From contig CAJXWP010000004.1 in assembly GCA_913062625.1 (NCBI GenBank), positions 1 to 64,000 on the forward strand: 64,000 nt of DNA, in the 5' to 3' direction. Positions within the stretch are counted from its first letter, which is position 1. Each line of letters begins with the position of its first letter. Shown here in pieces: positions 22,996-26,989 of the stretch. The notes below the pieces were generated by a model, which was given only the letters and a program-made list of their open reading frames with translations, had not been told where the DNA came from and did not search any database. The stretch is from an uncultured Haliea sp. GTDB taxonomy: Bacteria > Pseudomonadota > Gammaproteobacteria > Pseudomonadales > Halieaceae. The position numbers were made by a program, and so were the translations under genes.

Positions 22996-23745
22996 ATGTT
23001 GCGTAATGCTTTGCTCCTAATAATGTTGTGTTTCGGTTCTTTAGGGGCCACCGCAGATGGACTCAAGGTCGGCATCTCGACAGATTATCCGCCATTGGCT
23101 TACAAACAGGAAGGGCGCATCGTTGGCATCGAGGTCGATAATGCCACAGCGGTGGGCGCGATTCTTGGGCGCAAAATGACATTGGTGGAAATGCCTTTTG
23201 AAAAATTGATTCCAGCTTTGCAGGCTAGTGAAATTGACGTGGTAATGTCTGGCATGAGCATAACGGCTGCGCGAGGCAAGCAGGTCACCTTTATCGATCC
23301 TTATATAGAGGTCGGGCAGATGGCCATAATGCTGATGGATAATGCGGCACAGTTTTCCCAGCCTTGGTCAATCTACCGAAAGGGGGTGCGTGTGGGTGTG
23401 GAGCCAGGCACTACCGGCGCAGAATTTGCCAAGATGGAACTCGAGGAAGCCCAGATCAGCTATTTTAGTAGCCCATCCGCTGCCTTTGACGGACTGCGCG
23501 CTGATGATATTGATCTGTACGTTCATGATGCGCCAACCAGTTGGCAGCTTGCAACGTCGAAAAATAATGAAGACTTACTCAGTCTGTATGCACCGTTGAC
23601 CAACGAACAGCTAGCATGGGCGGTCCGCAAAGACGATGAGCGTTTAGCGCAAGCGCTGAGTGCCGCTCTGCAGACCATGAAAGGCAATGGAAGTTTGCGC
23701 TATATCCTCAATCGCTGGATACCCGTAACGGTTGAGGTGCGCTGA
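22996..23745 (+). CDS. Periplasmic amino-acid-type solute-binding protein (SBP_bac_3), orphan
   Basis: Signal peptide; LKVGISTDYPPLAYKQEGRIVGIEVDNATAVGAILGRKMTLVEMPFEKLIPALQASEIDVVMSGMSITAARGKQVTFIDPY. Confidence 0.9.
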   Translation: MLRNALLLIMLCFGSLGATADGLKVGISTDYPPLAYKQEGRIVGIEVDNATAVGAILGRKMTLVEMPFEKLIPALQASEIDVVMSGMSITAARGKQVTFIDPYIEVGQMAIMLMDNAAQFSQPWSIYRKGVRVGVEPGTTGAEFAKMELEEAQISYFSSPSAAFDGLRADDIDLYVHDAPTSWQLATSKNNEDLLSLYAPLTNEQLAWAVRKDDERLAQALSAALQTMKGNGSLRYILNRWIPVTVEVR

Positions 23746-24841: not shown

Positions 24842-25035
24842 TGGCCGACTCGTTAAGTCTGCGGAGTTTCAGTCGGGAGGGTAAGGCGTATGAAAGGGGT
24901 GTCTCAATCTCTGCTGCGTCCAATGAGTGTGCGTTGTCTTTGGCTATTGGTTATATAGTGTCTTGTCTGACATACTGATGTTTGTTTATGGCAAGATAAA
25001 TTTTCTGCATAAAGCGGTAAATAAGGGAGGTGCGA

Positions 25036-25914
25036 ATGAAAAATTTCTTCCCCAGTAAAAAAGACTATGCAAAAGCCATTTCTATTTTAGACGCAAGGGT
25101 TACCATCCGGGTCTGTGCCGTGACAGTAACCGGACTCAGATTTCTGCGTCATTGTGGCGTCGCCGCTAGCGTTTGCTTTGCCGCTTCCGCTGCTTTTCAG
25201 GTTGCTCATGCCCTGGATGCTTGCCCGGGTCGAGCTGTGTCAGCGCACCAGGGCGTTACCGGTTTTAACACACTGCTGGACGGGCAGCCGGGAGCACCGC
25301 GCACGCCAGAATTTTATCTCATACCGTCTTATAATTTTGAACAAGAGAAGTTTGTAAATGAATTAAGTGTGAGCGTAGTACCGGGATTATCCGGTTTTTG
25401 GTGTCAGACGAGTTTCACGTTTGTTGCGCCTGTCGCCAGAGTGTTTGATGGCGATATTCACTTCGATAAATCAGTCGCAGCAAGCTGGGAGCAGCGGTGG
25501 CTGATCGATGACGGTTCATTGCCGACTGTGTCAACCGTCGTTGATGTGCTGACGCCTTACGATGACTCCAATGCAAATACTGAGATTTCACTGATCGGTA
25601 TCATTGCTAAATCCACCTCGTGGGGGGTGGTTTATCTGAACTCGGTGGCCTTGGCGGAAGACGCTAGTGACCTTTCTTCGGTCGATTTTTCCGGTGTAGT
25701 CGGCGCCAAACGTATCGTCAACCCTAAACTGGCGGTGTTTGCGGATATCGTCATCAATGAAGAGGGTTTGTATGCTCTGGAGCTGTCTGCCGAGCGTGAT
25801 TACAGTAATGGATTATCGCTCGGCCCCGGCATCAGACTGTTTCGTCCCAGCGACGGCTCTAATGATATCGATGTGTCGATAGGCATTGTCATAGCCAAGG
25901 TGTTTGGCGGTTAA
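25036..25914 (+). CDS. Secreted protein of unknown function, probably outer-membrane beta-barrel/transporter-like
   Basis: N-terminal hydrophobic segment, then alternating beta-rich sequence ending ...NDIDVSIGIVIAKVFGG; no specific family recognised. Confidence 0.6.
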   Translation: MKNFFPSKKDYAKAISILDARVTIRVCAVTVTGLRFLRHCGVAASVCFAASAAFQVAHALDACPGRAVSAHQGVTGFNTLLDGQPGAPRTPEFYLIPSYNFEQEKFVNELSVSVVPGLSGFWCQTSFTFVAPVARVFDGDIHFDKSVAASWEQRWLIDDGSLPTVSTVVDVLTPYDDSNANTEISLIGIIAKSTSWGVVYLNSVALAEDASDLSSVDFSGVVGAKRIVNPKLAVFADIVINEEGLYALELSAERDYSNGLSLGPGIRLFRPSDGSNDIDVSIGIVIAKVFGG

Positions 25915-25930
25915 GGTTCTGCCCAGGAGA

Positions 25931-26989
25931 ATGGTTATGAGAATACACGTCTGCCTTGCACTGTTACTGCTGCTGTGGTCTACGCTTGCGCCGGCCGAAA
26001 CACAGCGCGTTGGCATTAAGTCGGTGCCGCCATTTGCGATGCCGGATGGCCAAGGTGGCTGGACGGGAATTTCAGTAGAATTGTGGCAGCGTATTGCAGT
26101 GGGTTTGGGATGGAAAACCAAATGGGTGGTCATGGACAGTTCCCGTGCGCAGGTCGAAGCACTGGAAGCGGGCACTATCGATGTCGCGCTCGGAGCACTA
26201 TCAATGACGCCAGAACGCGAAGCCGTAATGAATTTTAGTGCCCCGTTTTATTCTACGCATCTCGCTATCGCCACTCCGGCACAATATGGCAACTGGCGGG
26301 GTGTGCTGAAGGGACTGTTATCGCCCGCATTTCTGAGCACAGTGGGTGTGTTGCTGCTGTTACTGCTGGCAGTGGGAGCGCTGTTATGGCTGGTCGAGCG
26401 TAAACGCAATCCTCAGGAGTTCGGCGGTTCCGTTACGGAAGGCATCGGCAATGGTTTCTGGTGGTCGTTAGTGACTATGACGACGGTAGGCTACGGCGAC
26501 AAGGCTCCGGTGACTTTTACTGGCCGAGCGCTGGCCACCATCTGGATGTTTGCCAGTATCATCATGATTTCAGGTCTCACCGCTAGTATTGCGGCATCGC
26601 TGACAGTGAACCAGCTCAATACTATGGTACGCGGCGTTCAGGATCTCAATCAGGTAAGGTCCGTTGCTGTGACGGGTTCTACTGGCGAGCAATTTTTGCG
26701 CAAGAGTGGCATTCGCATGCAGACGGTCGACACGGCCACTGAGGGGCTGGCGATGCTAAGAGAGGGCACAGCCGATGCGCTGGTCTACGATGAAGCGCTG
26801 CTGCGTTACCTGCTGAAGGATGCTGCGCCCGGCATCGAGATTCTAAGGCAGTCTATCGAAATGCAGTATTATGCGTTTGGTATGAAGTCGAGTTTTGCGC
26901 ATCAGGAAAAGCTCAATCAGACTTTGCTGGCTTATACGAGTGACAGCGAGTGGCAGGCGATACTCAACCGTTATTTGGGGCAGCGCTAG
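25931..26989 (+). CDS. Prokaryotic ionotropic glutamate receptor-like channel (SBP domain split by a K+-channel-like pore module)
   Basis: Signal peptide; SBP lobe VGIKSVPPFAMPDGQGGWTGISVELWQRIA; TM STVGVLLLLLLAVGALLWLVERKRNP; pore GFWWSLVTMTTVGYGDKAPVTFTGRALATIWMFASIIMISGLTASIAASLTV; then second SBP lobe. Confidence 0.92.
   Translation: MVMRIHVCLALLLLLWSTLAPAETQRVGIKSVPPFAMPDGQGGWTGISVELWQRIAVGLGWKTKWVVMDSSRAQVEALEAGTIDVALGALSMTPEREAVMNFSAPFYSTHLAIATPAQYGNWRGVLKGLLSPAFLSTVGVLLLLLLAVGALLWLVERKRNPQEFGGSVTEGIGNGFWWSLVTMTTVGYGDKAPVTFTGRALATIWMFASIIMISGLTASIAASLTVNQLNTMVRGVQDLNQVRSVAVTGSTGEQFLRKSGIRMQTVDTATEGLAMLREGTADALVYDEALLRYLLKDAAPGIEILRQSIEMQYYAFGMKSSFAHQEKLNQTLLAYTSDSEWQAILNRYLGQR

Follow-up and report, generated by a model that had tools for sequence, protein, structure and literature searches.

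The window analysed here, a 64,000-nucleotide stretch of DNA from an uncultured Haliea sp., contains a gene whose product combines a solute-binding domain with a TVGYG motif, and the question it raises is whether this gene encodes a ligand-gated K+ channel related to ionotropic glutamate receptors (iGluRs), as an original prediction made from the letters alone had proposed, or a binding protein of a more ordinary kind.

A pore within a binding-protein domain

The open frame was originally read as running from 25931 to 26989. The frame, its position and its strand stand, but the start probably lies at ATG 25937 rather than at ATG 25931, since an AGGAG sequence is found 7 bases upstream of the former, and the latter is not kept in relatives L013 and L014, where sequence comparison places ATA or ATT. 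ATG 25937 is kept as ATG in the relatives compared, with GTG in L016. The features of the gene are as follows.

25925..25929, + strand: likely Shine-Dalgarno sequence AGGAG for ATG 25937, from sequence (7 bases to ATG 25937, 1 base to ATG 25931)
25937..26989, + strand: candidate GluR0-type channel gene, stop included; 350 aa from ATG 25937 (352 aa from ATG 25931)
25937..25996, + strand: predicted signal peptide, hydrophobic and ending in ...LAPA (hydropathy; model helix 2-18)
26000..26281, + strand: lobe S1 of the predicted ligand-binding domain, with S91 and R96, the putative alpha-carboxylate Arg (Pfam SBP_bac_3, GluR0 alignment, column conservation)
26324..26398, + strand: predicted transmembrane helix M1, residues 132-156 (model, hydropathy)
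26432..26482, + strand: predicted pore helix, residues 168-184 (model)
26483..26497, + strand: putative K+ selectivity filter T185-V-G-Y-G189, followed by D190 (TVGYGD in 21/24 aligned relatives)
26516..26617, + strand: predicted transmembrane helix M2, residues 196-229, in which SGLTASIAASLTV resembles the iGluR gate helix (GluA2 SSYTANLAAFLTV) (model, GluA2 alignment)
26636..26983, + strand: lobe S2 of the predicted ligand-binding domain, with G249-S250-T251 and D287, the putative alpha-amino Asp (Pfam, GluR0 and NpGluR0 alignments, conservation)

The succession of signal peptide, lobe, transmembrane helix, pore loop, transmembrane helix and lobe that had been noticed in the translation is borne out by Pfam, hydropathy and the AlphaFold model taken together. 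Hydropathy analysis gives exactly three candidate hydrophobic spans, namely the signal peptide and residues 124-158 and 200-226, and the hydrophobic N-terminus ending in ...APA fits a signal peptide that would place the lobes outside the cell. The charges of the M1-M2 loop are nearly balanced (+5/-4), which makes the positive-inside test a weak guide to an inverted topology. The layout had been described as permuted, a term that is not apt; "insertion" is the better word because the pore sits inside a binding protein, between its two halves.

Three Pfam profiles match within the chain, each judged against its curated cut-off and each above it: SBP_bac_3 (E=7e-23, residues 27-351, a single profile that the membrane part splits), Lig_chan (E=9e-17, residues 141-242) and Ion_trans_2 (E=2e-13, residues 142-224; 50.7 bits vs a cut-off of 22.5). 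The original prediction had named the joint occurrence of SBP_bac_3 and Ion_trans_2 in one chain as a check on itself, and both profiles were indeed found there, over cut-off. Chance is excluded as an explanation.

Proteins of this kind are often annotated automatically as plain solute-binding components of ABC importers, and SBP_bac_3 is the strongest of the three Pfam matches. However, two transmembrane helices and a K+ filter lie inside that domain, Lig_chan and Ion_trans_2 also score over their cut-offs, and a Pfam scan of nine proteins around the channel found no ABC permease or ATPase. The assignment as an ABC-transporter substrate-binding protein is refuted by this interrupted architecture, and we give it virtually no credence.

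The structure predicted with AlphaFold (mean pLDDT 84.9) has helices at residues 132-156, 168-184 and 196-229 between two alpha/beta lobes; the monomer shows the order lobe 1, transmembrane helix, P loop, transmembrane helix, lobe 2, on which the earlier reading had staked itself. When the model was searched with Foldseek, the top 50 matches were all AMPA-receptor subunits, aligned over the full model length (E about 1e-20, TM-scores 0.53-0.67). The scores below 0.7 reflect an uncertain arrangement of the lobes relative to the pore in the monomer model (pTM 0.64). We also built a profile from 24 relatives and searched it against solved structures, where it matched the ligand-binding domains (LBDs) of NpGluR0 (8e-59) and GluR0 (6e-44), and also GlnBP and, in single stretches, the plant receptor GLR3.4 and AMPA and NMDA receptors. 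The pore segment alone matched the K+ channels MloK1, KcsA and Kv1.3 in the PDB (E about 1e-9), and the whole channel chain matched AMPA receptors, with the end of M2, LTASIAASLTV, aligned to YTANLAAFLTV. Judged by sequence and model, a pore like that of a K+ channel within a chain like that of an AMPA receptor is the mix expected of a GluR0-type channel.

Selectivity filter, ligand contacts and candidate gating

The reading of TVGYG as a K+ filter is upheld both by the Ion_trans_2 match over cut-off and by the conservation of TVGYG/TVGYGD in 21 of the 24 aligned relatives. Three distant relatives (L038 5917-7098, L045 5966-7039 and L046 5971-7068; L038 is from another Halieaceae genus) have the same layout without the TVGYG filter and resemble the non-K+ "Group 2" proteins.

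In the two lobes, R96 is kept in 22 of the 24 relatives, the exceptions being L037 and L047, and D287 in all but L047 (23 of 24); these residues align with the PER and FDRP positions of GluR0. By alignment, G249-S250-T251 match the GST of GluA2, whose Ser and Thr contact the ligand. The pair formed by an alpha-carboxyl Arg and an alpha-amino Asp is reported to be conserved in all the Group 1 and Group 2 proteins of one study (Ger et al. 2010, PMC2950845). The original prediction had left the ligand unknown and had made itself depend on there being pocket residues compatible with some ligand; R96 and D287 are such residues. Since these two contacts for the alpha-groups are kept, the putative ligand is likely an alpha-amino acid, which narrows its class, and the lobe residues do not fix its side chain. 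A relative from another Halieaceae genus (L037 5571-6671) keeps TVGYG and perhaps has a different ligand or none, because a Tyr stands at the position of the alpha-carboxylate Arg.

An S1-M1-P-M2-S2 architecture with a K+ filter defines the "Group 1" prokaryotic iGluRs, of which 12 members were described (Ger et al. 2010, PMC2950845). In the window's protein, two transmembrane helices and a P loop lie between lobes S1 and S2 of a single chain, the pore carries a K+-channel selectivity filter (Ion_trans_2, TVGYG), and an Arg in S1 and an Asp in S2 align with those of GluR0. Because R96 and D287 are kept, an alpha-amino-acid-gated GluR0-type K+ channel is the best reading, and the gene very probably encodes a subunit of such a channel, predicted to be a homotetramer of the inner membrane and a Group 1 prokaryotic iGluR. 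What had been proposed, a ligand-gated channel of the GluR0 kind with a K+ filter, carried by a marine gammaproteobacterium, is thus supported: the near relatives are Halioglobus and Haliea MAGs of the Halieaceae, and profiles, model and ligand-contact residues agree. Gating and selectivity are what we infer from them.

The lobes could instead serve mainly for assembly or dimerisation in a channel that is open constitutively or opened by stress, with amino acids modulating it little. GluR0 needs its soluble domains and their dimer contacts in order to function, and in E. coli it acted as a route of K+ uptake with no agonist added on purpose, both of which would suit such a channel. Nevertheless, almost every relative retains both alpha-group contacts, even as identity over the remainder of the chain falls to about 40%, and we consider this account unlikely.

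On the favoured reading, that of a channel gated by an amino acid, export would put both lobes in the periplasm, where they would form a single clamshell with the pore between its halves. This clamshell would close on an alpha-amino acid, for which glutamate, glutamine and other L-amino acids are candidates, and its closure would pull on M2 and so open an inverted K+ pore entered from the cytoplasm. The K+ conductance might then move the membrane potential towards the K+ equilibrium, or allow quick K+ entry or exit in response to periplasmic amino acids. A possible setting for such a response is an upshift in osmolarity or ions, the situation reported for GluR0 of Synechocystis.

The locus, its upstream orphan and the spread of the channel

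The gene order runs from pyruvate-phosphate-dikinase-like, Ysc84, SDR, SBP and kinase-like genes through an orphan gene and the channel to glyoxalase-like, two OB-fold, thiolase-like and acyl-CoA synthetase-like genes (neighbour names beyond the nine Pfam-scanned proteins were read by eye from sequence). This order is kept in carriers L048 and L050, with only a remnant of the orphan in L050, which lies on the same contig as L016. Four channel-less congeners (G001, G004, G008 and G016) have the same order with nothing between the kinase-like and glyoxalase-like genes, although G004 gave no SDR match. Because the same order exists without the channel, the neighbourhood says little on channel function. 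The catabolic region in which the channel had been described as embedded appears to be only a landing site, and a link to the beta-oxidation-like genes was rejected on the same intact order in these four genomes. Three other congeners hold other DNA between the kinase-like and glyoxalase-like genes (L071 6440-7460, L072 4350-10400 and L073 8477-10340), so the site may be a recurrent insertion site.

Directly upstream of the channel is a further gene that travels with it:

25030..25914, + strand: orphan gene, secreted-looking, not judged a working part

The window's copy has no Pfam match even at E=10, and the model of its fold (pLDDT 31) is of no use. Its stop lies 22 bases before the channel start on the same strand, and orphan and channel are jointly absent from the empty site of the four congeners, as would suit a two-gene system with the orphan protein as an auxiliary subunit. 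In contrast, the orphan has shrunk to a C-terminal remnant in L014 and L016, where the channel is intact and constrained (dN/dS near 0.1); the orphan also evolves faster than the channel (dN/dS 0.33 vs 0.09), and beyond this group of congeners the channel has none of its neighbours in common. The orphan is not an obligate channel partner, since it is wrecked in these two carriers, and a role as auxiliary subunit is very unlikely.

A soluble SBP_bac_3 protein is encoded 2 kb upstream of the channel (22996..23745, + strand), with Arg/Asp-like contacts of its own by eye. It is present in 29 of 57 related genomes, most of them without the channel, and was rejected as a specific channel partner, being widespread in Halieaceae independently of the channel. 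The soluble SBPs of carriers are 80-89% identical to the window's, and those of non-carriers 57-67%. Because the carriers' copies are the closer ones, the simplest reading of these sequences would be a single gain of the channel in one subgroup followed by vertical descent; loss elsewhere is also possible.

The window's genome holds one copy of the channel, along with two other Ion_trans_2 genes. Full-length or nearly full-length relatives (78-94% identity) occur in 4 of the 17 other genomes of the genus, the named records being Halioglobus and Haliea MAGs of the Halieaceae, and two more distant relatives (41% and 29%) belong to other genera of the family, where they lie at unrelated loci. An even sample of 369 genomes of the class contains 14 (about 4%, the window's own counted) that hold the channel at E<=1e-20, and further relatives are found in Planctomycetota and Myxococcota (Myxococcales records). 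On these counts the channel is patchy but not rare. It is under purifying selection, as dN/dS is 0.08-0.12 between the window and its four carrier congeners.

In a tree of 23 relatives the window falls together with the other Halieaceae carriers (100/100); its deeper forks are poorly supported, and the three TVGYG-less relatives sit on long branches. Base composition (54.7% GC in the channel vs 52.5% in the window) is uninformative on recent transfer. We regard as tentative, and on the whole doubtful, a fuller proposal: that the K+ channel was acquired horizontally, is limited within the genus to a single subgroup of Halieaceae, is tuned to a ligand that resembles an amino acid but is not glutamate, and serves a marine heterotroph in electrical or osmotic signalling. 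For this family, transfers between cyanobacteria and proteobacteria have been inferred (Ger et al. 2010, PMC2950845).

Comparison with known systems

Synechocystis GluR0 is located in the plasma membrane, mediates K+ uptake in E. coli LB2003, has an inverted topology, needs both soluble domains and plays a role in cell volume under KCl upshock (PMC13099474). The window's protein shares with GluR0 (slr1257) the S1-M1-P-M2-S2 layout, the GYG filter, the Arg/Asp amino-acid contacts and the lack of an N-terminal domain and of M4, but its lobe sequences are only distantly similar and its host is a marine gammaproteobacterium. A further candidate difference is an M2 stretch that aligns to SYTANLAAF-LTV of AMPA receptors, the comparison having been made with these receptors. 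The AMPA receptor GluA2 resembles it in whole-chain structure and in the "LTV" end of the gate helix; in contrast, GluA2 is without a GYG filter and has both M4 and an N-terminal domain. The LBD of NpGluR0 (PDB 2pyy, from Nostoc punctiforme) is the best solved match to the relatives' profile, across both lobes, although the solved entry matched comprises the ligand-binding domain only.

This type of channel is uncommon but already described, and the window's gene is a sound addition rather than a surprise. GluR0-type channels, few of which have been tested, are living models of the route by which neuronal glutamate receptors arose from a binding protein and an inverted K+ pore. A small gammaproteobacterial member, for which four congeners offer a clean site without the channel as a comparison, would make a handy test object. 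Among the listed Group 1 members, YP_339120.1 is one that we take to be from the gammaproteobacterium Pseudoalteromonas haloplanktis. Compared with the Group 1 iGluRs of Ger et al. (2010), the window's protein has the defining architecture and K+ filter and adds only a new species and locus, so the known picture is unchanged and gains a GluR0-type member with a well-resolved empty site.
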